Source of the DNA: an uncultured Clostridium sp.
GTDB lineage: Bacteria; Bacillota; Clostridia; Peptostreptococcales; Peptostreptococcaceae
Reading direction: 5' to 3'
Assembly: GCA_900557165.1 (NCBI GenBank)
Contig: USRS01000029.1
Span: 1 to 23,916 of the forward strand
DNA: 23,916 nt
The translations under genes and the position numbers were made by a program. Below the pieces are notes generated by a model. It did not search any database. It worked only from the letters and a program-made list of their open reading frames with translations, and was not told the origin of the DNA. Below, one piece after another: positions 6,095 through 19,886 of this stretch (position 1 is the first letter of the stretch; each line of letters starts with the position of its first letter).

Positions 6095-7807
6095 TTATAA
6101 TCTTACGTTCTTTTTTTTGAACTCTTCTCTAACTCTAGCTTCTATATCTTCTAAAGCTATTAACTCTTTTTCACCAGTTTCTCTTAAAACAAATTCAACT
6201 TTTCCGTCTACTATATCTTTACCAACTGTAATTCTCATTGGTATACCTATTAATTCAGCATCTTTGAATTTGAACCCTGGTCTTTCATTTCTATCATCTA
6301 ATATAGCTTCAACACCTATAGATTCTAATTGTTTGTATATTTTTTCTGCATTTTCTACTTGTTCTTCTTTTTTCATGTTAACTGGAACTACTATTACATG
6401 GTATGGAGCTACTGATAGTGGCCATTTTATACCATTTTCATCGTGATGTTGTTCTATTATAGCAGCTGCTGTTCTTTCAACACCTATTCCATAGCATCCC
6501 ATTTGTATTGGATGAGATTTTCCTTCTTTATCAACAAATGTACAATCCATAGCTTCTGAGTACTTAGTTCCTAATTTGAAAATGTGTCCAACTTCTACAC
6601 CTCTCATTATTTCTAACTCTCCACCACAGTTGCTACATTTATCTCCGTGTTGTACTGATCTGAAATCTCCTACTACACCTTCAAAGTCTCTTCCAAAGTT
6701 AGCATTTTTTATATGGAATCCAGTTTTATTAGCACCAACTACTAAGTTTGATTGATCTACAACTTCTTGGTCTATAAATAAGTAATCTGCTTTTATTCCT
6801 ATTGGTCCAGCAAATCCTGTTTCAGCACCAGTAACTGCTTTTACCATTTCTTCTGATGCCATTTCCATTTCGACAACTCCACCTACAGCATTTGCTACTT
6901 TAGTATCGTTAACGTCTCTATCTCCTCTAACAACTACTGCTACAGATTTTCCATCTGCATCAAATATTAAAGTTTTAGCACATTTACTAGCATCAGTATT
7001 CATAAATTTGTGTAAATCTTCTATTGTTTTTATTTCTGGAGTTTCAACTTCTTCTAACTCTAACATTTCTTCTTTACACGGTTCATGATTAACAGATACA
7101 GCTTTTTCTATATTTGCTGCATAATCACATTCTTTACAGAATACTATTTCATCTTCTCCAACTTCTGATTTAACCATGAATTCTGCTGAATATGCTCCAC
7201 CTATTGCACCTGAATCCGCTTGAACTGGCGCATTATCTAACTCACATCTAGCAAATATTCTTGTATATGCATCAAACATATCTTGGTATGATTTATCAAG
7301 ACCTGCTTCATCTATATCAAAACTATAAGCATCTTTCATTGTAAATGTTTTAGTTCTCATAACACCAAATCTTGGTCTTCTCTCATCTCTATATTTTGAT
7401 TGTATTTGATATAAGTTTAAAGGAAGATCTTTATAAGATTTTACCTCTTGTCTTATTATATCTGTAAACACTTCTTCATGTGTTGGTCCAAGACAGTAAT
7501 CTTTTCCAGTTCTATCTTGTAATCTGAACATTTCCGGTCCCATAACATCCCATCTACCAGATTCTTGCCATAATTCTGCAGGTATTAATCCTGTACAGTA
7601 TATTTCATTGGCATCTTTTGCGTTCATTTCTTCTCTTATTATGTCGCTTATCTTCCTGAATACTCTTAATCCTAATGGTAATTGGTTATAAAGTCCTGAA
7701 GACATTTTTTTTATCATACCAGCTCTTAACATTAATTGATGACTTGTTATTTCTGCATCAGCTGGCACTTCTTTTAATGTTGGTACAAACATTCTTGACA
7801 TTCTCAT
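6095..7807 (-). CDS. proS: Prolyl-tRNA synthetase, bacterial type with editing domain
   Basis: This class IIa synthetase charges tRNA-Pro with proline. At 570 residues it is the long bacterial form. The N-terminal catalytic core carries [17 protein letters not shown] and motif 2 ([17 protein letters not shown]). A YbaK-like insertion at about residues 225-390 would hydrolyse Ala-tRNA-Pro. Motif 3 is [14 protein letters not shown], and a C-terminal anticodon-binding domain starts at about residue 465. AGGAGGT lies 8 bases before the first ATG; a second in-frame ATG is two codons on. In Bacillus, proS is usually not in the ctsR-sigH cluster; here it precedes gltX. Expression should be set by the T-box upstream. 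Confidence 0.97.
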
Positions 7808-7837: not shown

Positions 7838-7876
7838 AAAAAAGCCCTTCATCTCTAAAAATAGAGACGAAAGGCT
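7838..7876 (-). terminator. T-box regulated terminator before proS
   Basis: A 14-bp stem with two G-U pairs (7843-7856 with 7863-7876) and a 6-base loop is followed on the minus strand by seven T residues. It is mutually exclusive with the T-box antiterminator just upstream and lies 31 bases before the proS ATG. Confidence 0.9.
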
Positions 7877-8100
7877 TGTACTTTCCGCGGTACCACTCTA
7901 GTTAATCTATAAAAATAGATTCTCTCAAAGGATGTAACGGTCCTACCCGTAAAAACTTTTTAACGTTTTTATACTAAAAGATTGGTTCAAAAACTTCCTC
8001 TTAGGAACTCTCACCACTATTCCCTCTCTGTAAAGATTTCATTTTTTACTATTTCTTTATTGTTGTTTTTAGTCTTATTTAAGTTGTTTCTAAAATATAA
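7838..8100 (-). promoter_or_regulatory. T-box riboswitch, proline specifier, controlling proS-gltX
   Basis: The leader contains the canonical T-box sequence AGAGTGGTACCGCGG on the minus strand (7885-7899), whose TGG pairs with the acceptor end of uncharged tRNA. Stem I features include AGAGAGGGAATAGTGGTGAG around 8009-8028, and a specifier-loop context TGAACCAATC that exposes CCA, a proline codon (7983-7985). Binding of uncharged tRNA-Pro should stabilise the antiterminator and open proS transcription. The competing terminator lies at 7838-7876. The specifier call rests on position and agreement with the downstream gene. Confidence 0.93.
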
Positions 8101-13289: not shown

Positions 13290-15743
13290 TTACTTAACTT
13301 CAAAAGTCATTTTGCCTTCTTTAACTGTAGCCTCAACTATGTCTCCTGATTTTATAGTTCCTTGTAATATTAGTTCAGACAATTCATTTTCCAATTCTTT
13401 TTGTATGGATCTTTTTAATGGTCTAGCTCCATATTCTAAATCAAAGCCTGATTTAGCTATCAAGTCTATAGCATCTTCATCCATTTCTAATTTTATTGTC
13501 ATCTCGTCTAATCTTTTTACTAATGTTTTACACATTAATTTTACTATTTGTGATATATCTTCTTTATTTAATGAATGGAATACTATTATGTCATCTATTC
13601 TATTTAAAAATTCTGGTCTAAATTGTTTTTTAAGTTCTGACATAATATTTTCTTTCATTTTGTCATATTCATCACGTTCTTTTTTGTCTTTGTCTGGTGT
13701 ACCAAAACCTAATGTTTTTTGTTTTTTAATAGTTTTAGCCCCCACATTTGAAGTCATGATTAATATAGTATTTTTAAAGTCTACAGTTCTTCCTTTTGAA
13801 TCCGTAAGTCTACCATCATCTAGTATTTGTAATAAAATATTAAATACATCTGGATGGGCTTTTTCTATTTCATCAAATAATACTACAGAATAAGGATGTC
13901 TTCTAACTTTTTCTGTTAATTGACCACCTTCATCATAACCTACATATCCTGGAGGAGAACCTATAAGTCTAGATACTGAATGTTTTTCCATATATTCTGA
14001 CATATCAATACGAACAATTTGATTTTCATCTCCAAACTCAGCTTCTGCTAAAGCTTTACTAAGTTCAGTTTTTCCAACTCCTGTTGGACCTAAAAATAAA
14101 AATGAACCTATTGGTCTATTTGGATCCTTAAGACCTGCTCTTGCCCTTCTAATGGCTGTACAAATAGATTTTATTGCTTGGTCTTGGCCTATAACCCTTT
14201 CATGTAATATATCTTCTAATTTTAATAGTCTTTCTGTTTCTTCTTCCATCATTCTACTTACAGGTATTCCTGTCCATGATCCCACAACTTCTGCAATTGT
14301 TTCTTCATCAACAACATTAGCATGCTTATATGATTTATTCCAACTATTTCTTACTGAATCTAGTTCTTCTTGAGCTTTTCTTTGCTCATCTCTTAACTTA
14401 GCTGCTTTCTCAAAATTTTGACCTCTCACAGATTCTTCTTTTTCTTTTTTAATATTATTTATTTTTTCCTCTAAATCTTTTATATCTTTTGTAGGAGTAT
14501 TTTCTTTTAGTCTAACTTTTGATGCAGCTTCATCTATTAAATCTATTGCTTTATCTGGTAAAAATCTATCTGTTATATATCTTACAGATAAATCTACAGC
14601 TGCTTTAATAGATTCATCTGTTATTTTTACTTTGTGATGAGCTTCATATTTATCTCTAAGACCTTTTAGTATTTCTATAGTATCTTCTTTTGTTGGTTCT
14701 TCAATTAATACAGATTGAAATCTTCTTTCTAATCCTGAATCTTTTTCTACGTGTTTTCTGTATTCATCTATAGTTGTAGCACCTATTACTTGTATTTCCC
14801 CCCTTGCCAAGCAAGGTTTTAAAATATTAGAAGCATCTATAGACCCTTCTCCTGTTGCTCCTGCACCTATTATCGTGTGCATTTCATCTATAAATAAAAT
14901 TATATTTCCCTTTTTGATAACCTCATCTATAACTTGTTTTATTCTTTCTTCAAACTCACCTCTATATTTTGCACCAGCTAGAAGAGAACCCATGTCTAGA
15001 GTATAAAGAATTTTGTCTTTTAGTGTATCTGGTACTCTACCTTCTGCTATATCTATGGCTAATCCCTCTGCTATGGCTGTTTTACCAACACCTGGATCTC
15101 CTATTAATACAGGATTATTTTTTGTTCTTCTGCTTAAAATTTGTATTATTCTTTCTATTTCTTTTTTTCGTCCTATTACAGGATCTATTTTATCTTGCTT
15201 AGCACATTCTGTAAGGTTTCTTCCATACTTATCAAGTAATTTTGATGAAGTAGAGTTTTCAGAAGTTGCTACTGATTTATTTGATTTTTGAGGTTCTATG
15301 GAATAATTATCTATTCCCATCATTTCTATTATACTTTCAGCAATATCTCTAGAATCAATATTTAGTGATGCTAATATTCTCATTCCCAAACCTTCACCTT
15401 CTTGGGCAAGGGCTAATAAAATATGTTCTGTTCCTATATAATTTGTTTTTAACTTATTCGCAAAAGCTCCTGATAATTCTAAAATTTGTTTAGATCTAGG
15501 ACTTAATGTCACATCAGATGTTCCTATATCATTTTTACCCTCTATCTCTACAATCTTACTTTCTAGTATATCTTCAGTAACCCCTAATTTATTTAATACT
15601 TTAGCTGCTATACCATCTTTTTCTTTTAGAAGACCTAGAAGTAAATGCTCTGTTCCTACAATTTTATGTCCAAAACTTTTCGCTGACTCTACACCTAAGT
15701 CAATTGCTGTTTTAGCTCTTTGAGTAAATCTATTGAAGTACAT
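13290..15743 (-). CDS. clpC: ATP-dependent Clp protease ATP-binding subunit ClpC
   Basis: ClpC is the Hsp100 unfoldase that feeds proteins to ClpP. The 817-residue protein has two N-domain repeats (1-140) with GTEH motifs at Glu32 and Glu106, AAA1 with Walker A GDPGVGKT at 215-222, and a UVR-type coiled-coil middle region (LRDEQRKAQEELD). AAA2 has Walker A GPTGVGKT near 545, followed by a C-terminal D2 small domain. The start is taken as the ATG at 15741-15743 (MYFNRFTQRAK), 7 bases after AGGAGG; an upstream ATG (15747-15749) lies only one base from that site. Glu32 and Glu106 match the phospho-arginine-binding residues described in B. subtilis ClpC. It is the last gene of the CtsR operon. 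Confidence 0.97.
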   Translation of the reverse strand: MYFNRFTQRAKTAIDLGVESAKSFGHKIVGTEHLLLGLLKEKDGIAAKVLNKLGVTEDILESKIVEIEGKNDIGTSDVTLSPRSKQILELSGAFANKLKTNYIGTEHILLALAQEGEGLGMRILASLNIDSRDIAESIIEMMGIDNYSIEPQKSNKSVATSENSTSSKLLDKYGRNLTECAKQDKIDPVIGRKKEIERIIQILSRRTKNNPVLIGDPGVGKTAIAEGLAIDIAEGRVPDTLKDKILYTLDMGSLLAGAKYRGEFEERIKQVIDEVIKKGNIILFIDEMHTIIGAGATGEGSIDASNILKPCLARGEIQVIGATTIDEYRKHVEKDSGLERRFQSVLIEEPTKEDTIEILKGLRDKYEAHHKVKITDESIKAAVDLSVRYITDRFLPDKAIDLIDEAASKVRLKENTPTKDIKDLEEKINNIKKEKEESVRGQNFEKAAKLRDEQRKAQEELDSVRNSWNKSYKHANVVDEETIAEVVGSWTGIPVSRMMEEETERLLKLEDILHERVIGQDQAIKSICTAIRRARAGLKDPNRPIGSFLFLGPTGVGKTELSKALAEAEFGDENQIVRIDMSEYMEKHSVSRLIGSPPGYVGYDEGGQLTEKVRRHPYSVVLFDEIEKAHPDVFNILLQILDDGRLTDSKGRTVDFKNTILIMTSNVGAKTIKKQKTLGFGTPDKDKKERDEYDKMKENIMSELKKQFRPEFLNRIDDIIVFHSLNKEDISQIVKLMCKTLVKRLDEMTIKLEMDEDAIDLIAKSGFDLEYGARPLKRSIQKELENELSELILQGTIKSGDIVEATVKEGKMTFEVK

Positions 15744-15754
15744 TTTCATCCCTC

Positions 15755-16759
15755 CTATTTCTTATTTCTATTGGCAAGAGTAAATTCTTCTCTTAAAAAA
15801 TCAGCTCTTTTTATATCACCATCACTAGTCATTGGAGACATCAACTCCATAATAGGCTTCATTCCTGTCATTAAATTAATAACTTTTTCTAAACTAATAT
15901 CTTTAATATAGTCCATTTCAATCCCCAATTTTATATTAGACAAATGTTTCATAGCTTCTTGTGCTGATATTATTCTGCAGTTTTGTAATATACCTAAAGA
16001 TCTATAAATATCATCTTCTAATTCTATGGATGCTTCCATATTTACAAGTAATCTAGATTCATTTTCTTTTGTCTTAATATCTTTTGTTAAACTTTTTAAA
16101 CTTTCAATTATATTTTTTTCTGATCTACCAATAACTGATTGATTAGTTATTTCAAACATATTACCTAAAGTATTTGATTTATTGCTAGAAATACCTTTTA
16201 TGTTTGCACCTAACTTATGTGCAATATTTGAATAAGTTTCTATTTTCTTTTGTAGTGATAATATTGGTAAATGAATAACTACTGTGGCCTTTAAACCTGT
16301 TCCTGCATTAACAGGTAAACAAGTTAAATAACCTATTTTATCATTAAATGCATACTCTATTTTTTCTGATAAAATATCGTCTATCTTATTTGCCATATTA
16401 AAGGCTTCATCCATATTAAATTTGTCTTCGTATATTTTAATTCTTATATGATCTTCATCATTAATCAATATACATTTTGTCTTATCTTTGTTAATAATAA
16501 TTGAACCTATTTCACTCTTTGAAAATTCATTGCTTATAATTCTTCTTTCTATTAAGGCTCTTTTTTCTATTTCACTAAGATCTTTTATATTATGTGAAAT
16601 AAAATTATCCTCAGATAAATCTTCACATTCTAGTATTATATTGTTAATTTTTTGTGATATATTTTGAGATTCTGTCTGACTTAATTTATGAGGAAAAGGA
16701 TAGTTATTTATATTTCTAGATAAGGCAATATTATTGGCTATGATTATATTATCTTGCAT
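15755..16759 (-). CDS. mcsB: McsB-family protein arginine kinase homologue, probably catalytically degenerate
   Basis: McsB normally phosphorylates protein arginines, inactivating CtsR and tagging proteins for ClpC. This 334-residue homologue aligns along most of its length (DEDHIRIK at 101-108, NAGTGLKATVVIHLP at 151-165, ASIELEDDIYRSLGIL at 243-258). It is about 30 residues shorter than B. subtilis McsB and starts about 19 residues later. Against the B. subtilis sequence, recalled from memory, the ATP motif SSRIR (27-31) is ANNIA (8-12). Cys167 is Leu148, Arg176 is Lys157, Arg207 is Lys188 and Glu212 is Asn193, while Arg125 is kept as Arg106. The start is firm: AGGAGGAGA precedes the ATG by 5 bases. 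It sits 12 bases after mcsA. Family membership is sure; kinase activity is doubtful, and a structural or adaptor role with McsA is possible. Confidence 0.9.
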   Translation of the reverse strand: MQDNIIIANNIALSRNINNYPFPHKLSQTESQNISQKINNIILECEDLSEDNFISHNIKDLSEIEKRALIERRIISNEFSKSEIGSIIINKDKTKCILINDEDHIRIKIYEDKFNMDEAFNMANKIDDILSEKIEYAFNDKIGYLTCLPVNAGTGLKATVVIHLPILSLQKKIETYSNIAHKLGANIKGISSNKSNTLGNMFEITNQSVIGRSEKNIIESLKSLTKDIKTKENESRLLVNMEASIELEDDIYRSLGILQNCRIISAQEAMKHLSNIKLGIEMDYIKDISLEKVINLMTGMKPIMELMSPMTSDGDIKRADFLREEFTLANRNKK

Positions 16760-16771
16760 AATACTCTCCTC

Positions 16772-17311
16772 CTATTCATTGCACTTTTGTAAATGTTTTA
16801 TTTTATCCCTTATATCTGCTGCTTTTTCATACTCTTCTTTTTCTACAGCTCTAATTAAATCTTCTTTTAAAATTCTTATTTCTTTGCTTATATAGACATC
16901 ACCTTCCACCTTCTTTGGAATTTTTCCTATATATTCATCATATCCATAGATATTTTTAAGAATTGGTTTAAGCTGCTTTTCAAAAGCTTCATAACATTTA
17001 CTACAGCCAAGCTTTCCTGTTTCTCTATATTCGGCATATGTAGTGTAACAATTAGAACAAATAATATCTTTATCTGTAGATTCCTCATCGGCTGCTAGTA
17101 ATTTATCATATTGTTCATCTGATTGGTTATTTTCATCTATATTAAATTTATCCATTACATCCTTTATGGAAAATGGTTCTTGGAAATTAAAATTAAACAA
17201 TGGGTAGTCTTTTGCACAATCACTACATAAATACATTCTTGTTTCTTGTCCATTTATTATGGAGCTAATAAAAACTGAAGCAGTTTTCTTATGACATTTT
17301 TGACATAACAT
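16772..17311 (-). CDS. mcsA: McsA, zinc-binding activator of McsB
   Basis: McsA binds and activates McsB and helps modulate CtsR in Bacillus. The 179-residue protein has four CxxC pairs (Cys3/6, Cys29/32, Cys85/88, Cys103/106) that make two zinc sites. Its C-terminal UVR motif (about 146-176, LKEDLIRAVEKEEYEKAADI) is a typical ClpC/McsB-interaction coiled coil. The length matches the family. The ATG follows the ctsR stop by 4 bases, with the ribosome binding site AGAGGAGTGA containing that stop, so ctsR and mcsA are coupled. All zinc ligands are intact, in contrast to the altered McsB partner encoded next. Confidence 0.93.
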   Translation of the reverse strand: MLCQKCHKKTASVFISSIINGQETRMYLCSDCAKDYPLFNFNFQEPFSIKDVMDKFNIDENNQSDEQYDKLLAADEESTDKDIICSNCYTTYAEYRETGKLGCSKCYEAFEKQLKPILKNIYGYDEYIGKIPKKVEGDVYISKEIRILKEDLIRAVEKEEYEKAADIRDKIKHLQKCNE

Positions 17312-17315
17312 AATA

Positions 17316-17780
17316 TCACTCCTCTATATTAAATAATTCCTCTATTATATTTTTTAAAATTTTTGCCCTTATTATGTCATTTAACCCACATATAGGTGTA
17401 TTTAATGATTTATCATCTATAGTACATAATATTATCTTTGCTTCTCGACTATTAATCAAGTTTATGTCTATTAACCACTTTATAATCATTTTACTTTGTA
17501 GATATGTTATTTGTTTGTCTATTTTTTCATAAAAGATATTCAAAACCTGATCTTTATTTAGTTTAGTGATTTTATCGATTTTTATATATCCTCCTCCGCC
17601 TTTTTTGCTTTGGACCTCATATCCCTTCTCCCTAGAAAAGCGAGTTGTCAAAACATAATTTATTTGAGACGGAGCACAATTAAATAAGTTTGCAAGTTCA
17701 TTTCTTTGTATTTGAACTGTATCACTATCTTCCATTAAATCTTTGATAAATTTTTCTATTATATCACTAATTGATGCCAT
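17316..17780 (-). CDS. ctsR: Class III heat-shock repressor CtsR
   Basis: CtsR is a dimeric winged-helix repressor of clp genes that acts as a thermosensor through a glycine-rich wing. The ATG at 17778-17780 gives 154 residues, the same as B. subtilis, and lies 6 bases after the AAGTGGTG site; two GTG codons and another ATG further upstream are rejected because they lie on that site. The N-terminal domain has SISDIIEKFIKDL, the helix NCAPSQINYVLTTRFS and the wing SKKGGGGYIKI (58-68). The C-terminal domain contains INSREAKIILCTIDD. The wing reads SKK where Bacillus and Geobacillus CtsR have SKR, the arginine phosphorylated by McsB. It heads its operon and should repress itself through the operator upstream. 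Confidence 0.95.
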   Translation of the reverse strand: MASISDIIEKFIKDLMEDSDTVQIQRNELANLFNCAPSQINYVLTTRFSREKGYEVQSKKGGGGYIKIDKITKLNKDQVLNIFYEKIDKQITYLQSKMIIKWLIDINLINSREAKIILCTIDDKSLNTPICGLNDIIRAKILKNIIEELFNIEE

Positions 17781-17807
17781 ATACATCACCACTTAAATAA
17801 ATTTTTC

Positions 17808-17824
17808 TTTGACTTTCTTTGACT
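17808..17824 (-). promoter_or_regulatory. CtsR operator (tandem heptamer)
   Basis: The minus strand reads AGTCAAA, three bases (GAA), AGTCAAA. This is an exact match to the known CtsR consensus of direct RGTCAAA heptamers spaced by three bases. It lies 28 bases upstream of the ctsR start and next to the predicted transcription start, as expected for autorepression. Confidence 0.93.
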
Positions 17825-17954: not shown

Positions 17955-19886
17955 TTAATTATTAGCTTCAGCAATTATTTTAGTTGCAAGTTGTTGTGGA
18001 ACTTCATTGTATTTTTCTAGTTCCATTTCAAAGTAACCTCTACCTTGAGTCATTGATCTTAAATCAATTGCATATTTAAATGTCTCACTTTGAGGCGCTT
18101 CAGCATAAATAACTTGTTTACCTTTATCATCAGGCTCCATTCCTAATATTTTACCTCTTCTCTTATTAATATCACCCATTACATCACCCATATATTCCTC
18201 TGGAACAGTTATAGTTAATTTCATAATAGGTTCTAATAATATAGGTTGAGCTTCTTCCATTCCTTTTTTGAATGCTAAAGCTGCTGCCATTTTAAATGCC
18301 ATTTCAGATGAGTCAACATCATGATATGAACCATCATATAGTGTTGCTTTTATATTTGTAACTGGATATCCTGCAAGTATACCTTTTTGCATAGAATCTC
18401 TTAATCCTTTTTCTACTGCTGGTATATAAGATTTAGGAACTGATCCTCCAAATATTTCTTCATCAAATTCAAAATCATCTTTAGTTCTTGTAAATTTAAT
18501 TTTTACATCACCATATTGTCCATGTCCACCTGATTGTTTTTTATGTTTTCCTTGAACATCAGAACTTCCCTTTATAGTTTCTCTATAAGCAACTTTAATG
18601 TCCTCTAAATCAACATCTACACCAAATTTGTCTTTTAATTTATTTTTAACTGTATTTATATGAAGTTCACCTTGTCCACCTACTAAAGTTTGTTTAGTTT
18701 CTGCATTTCTGTACCATTGTATTGTTGGATCTTCTTCTGCAATTTTGTTTAATGAAGATCCTATTTTATCTTCTTCACCTTTATTCTTTGGTACAACAGA
18801 ATAATAAATTTGTGGTTTAGGTAAATCAATTTCTTCTAATAACTGTGCATCTGCATTGTTTGCTAGAGTATTTCCTGTTTGAAGAGAATTAATTTTTGTT
18901 ACAACTACTATATCACCAGAATTTGCACTTTCAATTTCTTCAAGTTCTCCATTTTTCATTGTATATAAATTACTTATTTTTTCTTTTGTGTCTTTATTAA
19001 CATTAACTATTTCTGAGTCTTTTTTCATTTTGCCTTCAACTATTTTTATATAAGACATTTTTCCTATGAATGGGTCAACCATTGTTTTAAATACTAATGC
19101 TCTTAATGGTTCATCTTCTTTTTTATATTTAGGTTGTATATATGAACCTATAGTTTCTAATATTTCTTGTGAACCTATGTTATTAATTGTTGATCCACAT
19201 ATTACAGGTATAATATCACCACTTTGAATACCTACTATTATTCCTTTTTGTATTTCTTCTGGAGTTAATTCTTCTCCATTAAAATATTTATCTAAAATTT
19301 CATCATCAGTTTCAGCTATATGTTCCATTAAAGCTTCTTTTACATTTGAAACCTGTTGTTTAAATTCTCCATCTAAATCATCATCCAAGTTTTCTAATAC
19401 ATTATGTAGTCTTACAAATTTTTTATCTTTGTATATCGGGCTTATCATTGGTACTATCTTATTGTCATATTTTTCTCTTAACATTTCTATTGCATCTTTA
19501 TATCTTGCCTTTTCATTATCTATTTTGTTTATAAACATGATTTTAGGCATATTTTCAGTTAACTCCAAAGATTTTTCTGTTCCCACTTGTATAGGATTTG
19601 TAGCATCTATTACTATAATAGCTGCATCACTGGCTCTTAATGCCGAAATTACTTCTCCAACAAAATCAAAATATCCAGGTGTATCTAAAAAATTATACTT
19701 TATCCCCTTATACTCTATGGGAGCTAGTCCTATACTATAAGTCATGTTAACTTTGTCGGATAACTTGGGCATTTTTTTTGAGATATTTGTAGTATATGCT
19801 AGGGCATAAATTAAATTTGATTTCCCACAACCACTATGCCCTAGTATTGCAACATTTCTTAAATCGTTACTATCATAGACTTTCAT
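17955..19886 (-). CDS. EF-G-like translational GTPase
   Basis: The 643-residue protein resembles elongation factor G across its length but is shorter than canonical EF-G (about 690). The G domain has the P-loop GHSGCGKS (16-23), switch II DTPGYFDF (68-75) and G4 NKID (120-123). Domain II follows, then the domain III segment VGGQGELHINTVKNKL, domain IV with KKQSGGHGQYGDV, and domain V with TVPEEYMGDVMGDINKRRGKI. Canonical EF-G has DTPGH, where the His is catalytic, and RGITI in switch I; here switch II has Tyr72 and switch I reads NMTYSIG. This fits the EF-G2/EF-G-like subfamily, not the main translocase. AGGTAGGTG precedes the ATG by 5 bases. It is monocistronic, between pyc and ctsR. The role is unknown. 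Confidence 0.88.
   Translation of the reverse strand: MKVYDSNDLRNVAILGHSGCGKSNLIYALAYTTNISKKMPKLSDKVNMTYSIGLAPIEYKGIKYNFLDTPGYFDFVGEVISALRASDAAIIVIDATNPIQVGTEKSLELTENMPKIMFINKIDNEKARYKDAIEMLREKYDNKIVPMISPIYKDKKFVRLHNVLENLDDDLDGEFKQQVSNVKEALMEHIAETDDEILDKYFNGEELTPEEIQKGIIVGIQSGDIIPVICGSTINNIGSQEILETIGSYIQPKYKKEDEPLRALVFKTMVDPFIGKMSYIKIVEGKMKKDSEIVNVNKDTKEKISNLYTMKNGELEEIESANSGDIVVVTKINSLQTGNTLANNADAQLLEEIDLPKPQIYYSVVPKNKGEEDKIGSSLNKIAEEDPTIQWYRNAETKQTLVGGQGELHINTVKNKLKDKFGVDVDLEDIKVAYRETIKGSSDVQGKHKKQSGGHGQYGDVKIKFTRTKDDFEFDEEIFGGSVPKSYIPAVEKGLRDSMQKGILAGYPVTNIKATLYDGSYHDVDSSEMAFKMAAALAFKKGMEEAQPILLEPIMKLTITVPEEYMGDVMGDINKRRGKILGMEPDDKGKQVIYAEAPQSETFKYAIDLRSMTQGRGYFEMELEKYNEVPQQLATKIIAEANN

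Follow-up and report, generated by a model that had tools for sequence, protein, structure and literature searches.

A putative McsB pseudokinase retained beside mcsA and clpC in Peptostreptococcaceae, with counterparts in Clostridium

McsB ordinarily marks defective proteins for degradation. What is left of such a protein arginine kinase once its catalytic residues have been replaced, and what could keep its gene in place? The question is raised by the mcsB-like gene of a 23,916-nucleotide stretch of DNA, hereafter the window, from an uncultured Clostridium sp. of the family Peptostreptococcaceae (assembly GCA_900557165.1, contig USRS01000029.1). An earlier note, made from the letters of the window, had described an McsB homologue with a dismantled active site, and the open reading frame is present at the coordinates given there, 15755..16759, on the minus strand, with 334 amino acids (aa). 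The protein has the ATP:guanido phosphotransferase domain and the McsB fold, and its gene stands in an operon with mcsA and clpC, a linkage to clpC that is suggestive of a ClpC adaptor without defining one. It misses the NCBIfam equivalog cut-offs, with 312 bits vs 385 for NF002194 and 286 vs 500 for NF053707. Fold and operon make it an McsB homologue; judged by essential residues and score cut-offs, it is on this evidence not a protein arginine kinase. We consider the loss of arginine kinase activity very probable. The whole explanation, an McsB pseudokinase with a retained fold, a retained partnership with McsA and a role as ClpC adaptor, is in our judgement evenly balanced.

Active site of the window protein and its closest relatives

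The window protein was aligned to 8wtb, 6tv6 and 6fh1, and Bacillus subtilis numbering is used for aligned positions. Residue 8 aligns with Ser27, so the N-terminus is, as had been noted, about 19 residues shorter. Relative to B. subtilis McsB, the alignment gives R29N, R31A, R176K, R207K, E212N, R337G and C167L, and retains R34, R125, D338 and R341. Of the six essential arginines (29, 31, 125, 176, 207 and 337), only Arg125 is left, and leucine and asparagine occupy the positions of the catalytic Cys167 and of Glu212 (Leu148 and Asn193). The segments quoted in the earlier note, ANNIA (8-12), Leu148, Lys157, KGISSN (188-193) and GDIKRA (314-319), all align as it had claimed (Table 1). In B. 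subtilis McsB, a single arginine-to-lysine exchange at R29, R31, R34, R125, R176, R207 or R337 abolishes in vitro activity (PMC7235348); the window protein is thus altered at five such positions, in addition to the catalytic cysteine.

These replacements extend to the relatives of the protein. Among the best 120 of 136 matches of a protein search, the clade of relatives lies at 43-99% identity; we counted the window and the closest 97 of the 120 listed matches (98 proteins) and dropped six for length, leaving 92 full-length proteins, the matches beyond the closest 97 being canonical-like (~33-39% identity) or fragments. None of the six scored arginines is kept in 73 of the 92 proteins, and one is kept in 19. 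R176K is found in 88 and R207K in 90, R337 is absent from all 92, the R31 position is mostly Ser or Ala and the R337 position mostly Ser, R125 is Lys in 70, and Glu212 is retained in 79. At position 167, Cys occurs in 72 proteins, Ser in 12, Leu in four, Arg in two and Phe in two. With the cysteine still present in 72 proteins and gone from 20, the leucine of the window is a late local step rather than the defining event, and the weight that had been placed on Leu148 was misplaced.

Table 1. Coordinates of the mcsB-like locus and of the active-site segments in the window.
Feature	Position	Strand	Remarks
CtsR operator	17808..17824	minus	AGTCAAAGAAAGTCAAA; exact match, upstream of ctsR; chance expectation 0.04 (<=1 mismatch allowed)
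ctsR	17316..17792	minus	158 aa
mcsA	16772..17311	minus	179 aa; UVR motif and both zinc fingers (8 Cys) intact
mcsB-like gene (P0001), putative pseudokinase	15755..16759	minus	334 aa; ATG start; RBS-like GGAGGA (ribosome-binding site) upstream of the start
ANNIA (8-12)	16724..16738	minus	in place of SSRIR (S27-R31); Arg29 and Arg31 equivalents lost (alignment)
Arg106	16442..16444	minus	= R125 of NEEDHIR, retained essential Arg (alignment)
Cys147-Leu148	16316..16321	minus	Leu at the catalytic Cys167 position; Cys one residue earlier (T-C-L-P)
Lys157	16289..16291	minus	R176K (alignment)
KGISSN (188-193)	16181..16198	minus	lid segment; R207K and E212N (alignment)
C-terminal dimerisation domain	15758..16030	minus	~residues 244-334
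GDIKRA (314-319)	15803..15820	minus	= R337-A342, phosphoarginine pocket; R337 lost, D338 and R341 retained
clpC	13290..15749	minus	819 aa; immediately downstream of mcsB

Partners, phosphatase and operator in Peptostreptococcaceae

The family was sampled with 71 Peptostreptococcaceae genomes centred on G004 (T. mayombei record L004) and not chosen by PF00217 score; genome completeness is not given for them, and single absences could be gaps. PF00217 is found in 29 genomes, of which ten carry a degenerate McsB (G001-G008, G026 and G075, with three Terrisporobacter and two Intestinibacter named in the records), 18 a canonical one and one, G031, a broken frame. The mcsB frame is intact in all ten degenerate genomes. 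The 28 genomes other than G031 have one PF00217 protein apiece, which leaves no second McsB to cover the lost activity. At E 3e-28 or better, McsA is present in every one of the 29 genomes and confined to them, matches elsewhere being no stronger than 5e-6, and this co-occurrence upholds the role as McsA partner that had been proposed. ClpC, full-length or split between contigs, is likewise present in all 29. In G031 (L049/L050), mcsB is split between frames of 160 and 203 aa that overlap, through a sequencing error or as a fresh pseudogene, and YwlE is still present.

The phosphatase YwlE was called as a PF01451 protein with a C-x-GNTCR loop; threonine rather than isoleucine in this loop distinguishes an arginine from a tyrosine phosphatase. 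According to the accessible part of a review, a single residue change determines the selectivity of the phosphatase. Such proteins occur in 18 of 18 canonical genomes and also in G031; the ten degenerate genomes and the 42 without McsB have none. The best match of G006 and of ten McsB-less genomes with PF01451 carries another loop (GNICR; HNSCR in G015), and raw pattern matches in the McsB-less G048, G055 and G060 do not coincide with PF01451. The distribution of YwlE and active McsB across the 71 genomes suggests that writer and eraser vanish together, with McsA and the McsB fold staying behind.

CtsR is found in 25 of the 71 genomes and is missing from the four Intestinibacter-type genomes and from the canonical G033 and G044; it occurs without McsB in G058 (stop within the match) and G059. 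Since the four Intestinibacter-type genomes keep McsA and McsB without CtsR, the modulation of CtsR that had been suggested for the window protein cannot be its general retained function. Their loci (L006-L009) retain mcsA-mcsB-clpC without ctsR and operator, and their McsA frames are longer (212-218 aa), with the family match split in two pieces. The exact CtsR operator of the window recurs in L001-L005 and L041, all loci of the Terrisporobacter type; the search of the fetched flanks gave no exact operator for the Intestinibacter-type loci. Among the low-scoring Clostridiales loci L189-L218, most carry ctsR, and an exact operator lies in the flank of L192 (G272, intermediate) only. B. subtilis CtsR loses DNA binding through its own heat-dependent change, as stated in the available part of PMC12634643. 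Given a CtsR that senses heat itself, as in B. subtilis, the operon can, by analogy, remain heat-inducible here without McsB kinase activity.

Two possible traces of kinase loss in neighbouring proteins were rejected. Loss of the wing arginine of CtsR, presumably the McsB substrate Arg62, does not accompany loss of the kinase, as Lys or Gln also occurs in canonical Clostridioides-type CtsR (a label that we inferred for this canonical group) and the CtsR found with degenerate McsB in Clostridium keeps Arg. The glutamates of the ClpC GTEH motifs, which we take to be the phosphoarginine readers (E32/E106 of B. subtilis ClpC), are the same throughout the four classes and do not discriminate. The canonical Clostridioides-type loci L027-L029, L031, L032, L034, L035 and L037 have the CtsR wing KGGGGYVQI with McsB and YwlE intact, and the Clostridium proteins have Arg before the glycines of this stretch.

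Recurrence in Clostridium and constraint on the degenerate genes

The earlier note had confined its attention to the window gene and its clade, which proves too narrow a scope, as a separate Clostridium clade is likewise degenerate. PF00217 occurs in 175 of 225 Clostridiales genomes, and active sites were compared in 98 of these 175. When 127 proteins are scored by eight core residues, 66 keep seven or eight, 57 (window included) keep at most three, two keep six, and two, cut by contig ends, were left unjudged. This split into two groups is more than chance, and the bimodality within Clostridiales stems in part from the sampling, since the canonical genomes there were picked mostly by high PF00217 score. 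The contig-cut G154 and G296 were excluded from conservation, tree and YwlE counts, and G159 and G272, with six of eight residues, were counted apart. C. beijerinckii represents one degenerate lineage (99% identity to records so named). In the best 120 of 564 matches to its protein, Ser has replaced Cys167 in 119 and Lys or Arg has replaced Glu121 in every one; none of these 120 retains more than two of the six essential arginines.

The origins of the degenerate proteins were traced on quick SH-aLRT (Shimodaira-Hasegawa-like approximate likelihood-ratio test) trees, which carry long-branch warnings, one of McsB and one of its partners (McsA and the ClpC N-terminus). In both, the window clade (11 members) forms one starred branch adjoining canonical Peptostreptococcaceae, apart from degenerate Clostridium. 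Each best tree requires three changes between canonical and non-canonical, of which starred branches force two. In the McsB tree, C. bornimense (G011, G193) groups with degenerate Clostridium; the partner tree places it among the canonical members of that genus, at a fork that has a support of 93 and is not starred, and this conflicting placement makes a third origin possible. Conversion to a pseudokinase thus appears to be independent in the large Clostridium clade and may possibly have happened a third time in C. bornimense. G159, which has lost Arg29 and Arg31, is nested within the degenerate Clostridium group; its position suggests that these two arginines went first and that the other residues eroded later in parallel. 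A test on independent pairs comprised two to three pairs and had no power.

In the wider sample, the YwlE DNA pattern is found in 66 of 66 canonical vs seven of 56 degenerate genomes, the window not being counted. Pattern and PF01451 were both checked in 30 genomes (23 degenerate, two intermediate and five canonical), with loops read for the PF01451 matches that had a locus, which ten weaker matches lacked; L272 and L286 gave no loop. The canonical G163, G206, G207 and G275 carry the CAGNTCR form of the loop, and the pattern is not matched in the intermediate G159 and G272. The low-molecular-weight phosphatases of L265 and L266 (G117 and G123, both with a degenerate McsB) have the loop CTANTCR, with Ala for Gly, and the codon pattern of this loop also occurs in G149 and in the McsB-less G109 and G110.

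Constraint was measured by the ratio of nonsynonymous to synonymous substitution rates (dN/dS, NG86); figures for Clostridium cover the pairs listed, many of which are near saturation. For mcsB, the ratio is 0.065-0.24 in the Terrisporobacter-type group (20 pairs listed) and 0.06-0.22 in the Intestinibacter-type group (six pairs), and in canonical Clostridium it is 0.03-0.15 among listed pairs with dS <0.5. Degenerate mcsB is under purifying selection, relaxed relative to active McsB. No degenerate copy has a stop within its PF00217 match as listed, and the frames measure 333-357 aa with one exception cut by a contig end. From canonical to degenerate proteins, column conservation drops from 0.83 to 0.45 in the lid and from 0.88 to 0.63 in the catalytic loop; the first part of the dimerisation domain hardly changes (0.66 to 0.62) and is among the best-kept stretches of the degenerate proteins. 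Gly162 and Tyr163 of the McsA-contact loop are retained, and McsA has its full set of eight cysteines in 11 of 11 Peptostreptococcaceae, while each cysteine is found in 27-29 of the 29 degenerate Clostridium operons examined. In Staphylococcus aureus, the second McsA zinc finger touches this McsB loop and positions the catalytic cysteine, according to the accessible part of PMC12467219.

Taken together, the loss of essential arginines by clade-wide substitution, the kept fold and intact frames, purifying selection, and the missing YwlE in ten genomes strongly support the pseudokinase inference of the earlier note; the joint pattern that it had named as a check, altered residues conserved across the clade together with purifying selection, was looked for and found. 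Its further statement that the gene is not a decaying pseudogene holds for the intact frame; constraint is looser than in active McsB and allows slow decay.

Retained function and competing explanations

We postulate that bacteria of the Terrisporobacter and Intestinibacter types descend from an ancestor that gave up the McsB-YwlE phosphoarginine cycle, and with it the ATP-site arginines, the arginine of the allosteric pocket and the phosphatase gene, and that selection kept the fold of McsB, the dimerisation domain and the zinc-finger McsA in place beside clpC. Through the second of its zinc fingers, McsA would dock on McsB to form a hetero-oligomer, as the conserved McsA cysteines and the Gly162-Tyr163 loop suggest. 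This complex would then bind ClpC and, acting as a scaffold adaptor, supply it with aberrant or regulatory clients without adding phosphoarginine marks to them. CtsR, where kept, would sense heat itself, as the B. subtilis literature describes, and control the operon through the intact operator, so that loss of the kinase would leave regulation unbroken. The uncertain step is the ClpC adaptor role of McsA-McsB, which is our best guess. The broader proposition, that Clostridia converted the McsA-McsB kinase at least twice into a catalytically dead ClpC adaptor and discarded the phosphoarginine code and its phosphatase, we hold to be slightly short of an even chance. If true, tag-writing and client delivery would be separable in McsB, and delivery alone would sustain long-term retention, even without CtsR.

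Several observations weigh against the pseudokinase-adaptor explanation as a whole. Canonical Clostridioides-type mcsB has a dN/dS of 0.020-0.086 (28 pairs), below the degenerate groups, two close degenerate Clostridium pairs reach 0.31 and 0.34, and mcsA is relaxed too (0.08-0.29 in the Terrisporobacter-type group vs 0-0.04). Conservation of the McsA-contact loop falls from 0.80 to 0.67, mcsA and mcsB are both missing from 42 of the 71 family genomes, and the ClpC glutamates show no erosion on the reader side. Arg106 is still present in the window, the only one of 11 degenerate Peptostreptococcaceae compared to keep it, and the absence of YwlE was scored in ten related genomes, the window's own not among them. 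A Thr-type PF01451 phosphatase is confirmed in the degenerate Clostridium genomes G113, G117 and G123; G149, also degenerate, matches by pattern only, with the same pattern as G117 and G123, and the pattern matches of G122, G124 and G291 are unconfirmed, that of G124 not coinciding with PF01451. Indirect experimental support for a scaffold comes from B. subtilis, where the excerpted text of PMC7235348 reports that the kinase-dead C167S is milder than a deletion for MgsR turnover; that result, though, implicates ClpX rather than ClpC, and the available part of a review states that the adaptor activity of B. subtilis McsB toward ClpC needs its kinase activity (PMC5506225).

The chief rival is slow decay, in which the kinase became dispensable and the gene drifts towards loss without a specific retained function, its disruption being mildly costly through translation coupling to clpC or weak residual binding. 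The relaxed dN/dS of mcsB and mcsA, the 42 family genomes without either gene, the catalytic cysteine that is still eroding and the translational coupling of McsB and ClpC mentioned in the portion of PMC5506225 available to us would all fit. We nevertheless find decay unlikely, in view of frames of steady length with no stop within the listed matches, dN/dS far below 1 in both Peptostreptococcaceae groups, zinc-finger cysteines and a dimerisation domain (first part) conserved about as in active systems, and the perfect pairing with McsA. Rather less likely still is a role directed at CtsR, which McsA-McsB would bind, inactivate or deliver without phosphorylation, like McsB freed from oxidised McsA in thiol stress. 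CtsR and the exact operator in the window, L001-L005 and L041 speak for it, as does the statement, in the part of PMC5506225 at hand, that McsB not acting as a kinase strips CtsR from DNA; the pair nonetheless persists without CtsR in all four Intestinibacter-type genomes, and the wing residues do not change with kinase loss.

Two further explanations keep an enzyme. A rewired one, in which Lys replaces Arg at several phosphate contacts and another nucleotide or acceptor is used, would account for the consistent Lys-for-Arg pattern at positions 125, 176 and 207, where decay would be random, and for the frequent retention of Cys167 and Glu212. It is improbable, given that each such exchange alone inactivates B. 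subtilis McsB, that R31 and R337 mostly became Ser or Ala and Ser, that YwlE is gone from all ten genomes, and that the listed Clostridium proteins have Ser for Cys167 and Lys or Arg for Glu121. An active but weak arginine kinase would be in keeping with Arg106 and the acidic NDEDH segment of the window and with the few degenerate Clostridium genomes that keep a YwlE-like phosphatase; with five essential arginines and the catalytic cysteine replaced, and YwlE absent from the related genomes, we consider it highly improbable.

The closest known system is the McsB protein arginine kinase of B. subtilis, G. stearothermophilus and S. aureus (PDB 6tv6, 6fh1, 8gqd), from which the window protein differs by the replacement of Arg 29, 31, 176, 207 and 337, Cys167 and Glu212, by the lack of YwlE in its relatives and by NCBIfam scores below cut-off. 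Kinase-dead alleles of B. subtilis McsB (C167S and the arginine-to-lysine series, in the accessible part of PMC7235348) are altered at the same positions, the Clostridium clade even by C167S (119 of 120 listed). Unlike these laboratory alleles, the clostridial changes are natural, multiple, conserved over genera and mostly accompanied by loss of the phosphatase. Bacterial Ser/Thr pseudokinases are likewise retained without catalytic residues, as far as the excerpt of PMC12599244 goes, whereas McsB belongs to a different superfamily, that of the phosphagen-kinase fold, and its gene adjoins that of a protease chaperone. The chlamydial McsB, CT675, is also kept with McsA, and the consulted portions of PMC5177608, PMC10128030 and PMC11708050 speak of a putative or presumed kinase in C. 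trachomatis. An McsB-like protein of a Chlamydiae metagenome-assembled genome (L019, the one sequence compared) lacks the scored essential arginines and the cysteine, which bears on the activity of chlamydial McsB.

A search of the open-access literature, with subscription papers mostly outside its scope, yielded no account of clostridial McsB pseudokinases or of a tie between them and YwlE loss. Kinase-independent function of McsB is unsettled in B. subtilis, and natural pseudokinases kept under selection with McsA, mostly without the phosphatase, make the question directly testable. The absence of YwlE may serve as a cheap genomic marker of a lack of phosphoarginine signalling. The solvent-producing laboratory species C. 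beijerinckii carries the same kind of degenerate McsB, and the name "protein arginine kinase" given to it in NCBI records is probably misleading.

Elsewhere in the window, a T-box leader (RF00230, 122 bits) lies at 7860-8072 on the minus strand, upstream of a prolyl-tRNA synthetase-like gene at 6095-7807. An elongation factor G-like protein of 643 aa (NF009381, 767 bits) is encoded at 17955-19886 on the minus strand; its P-loop is unusual (GHSGCGKSNL), and its switch I stretch is apparently shortened.
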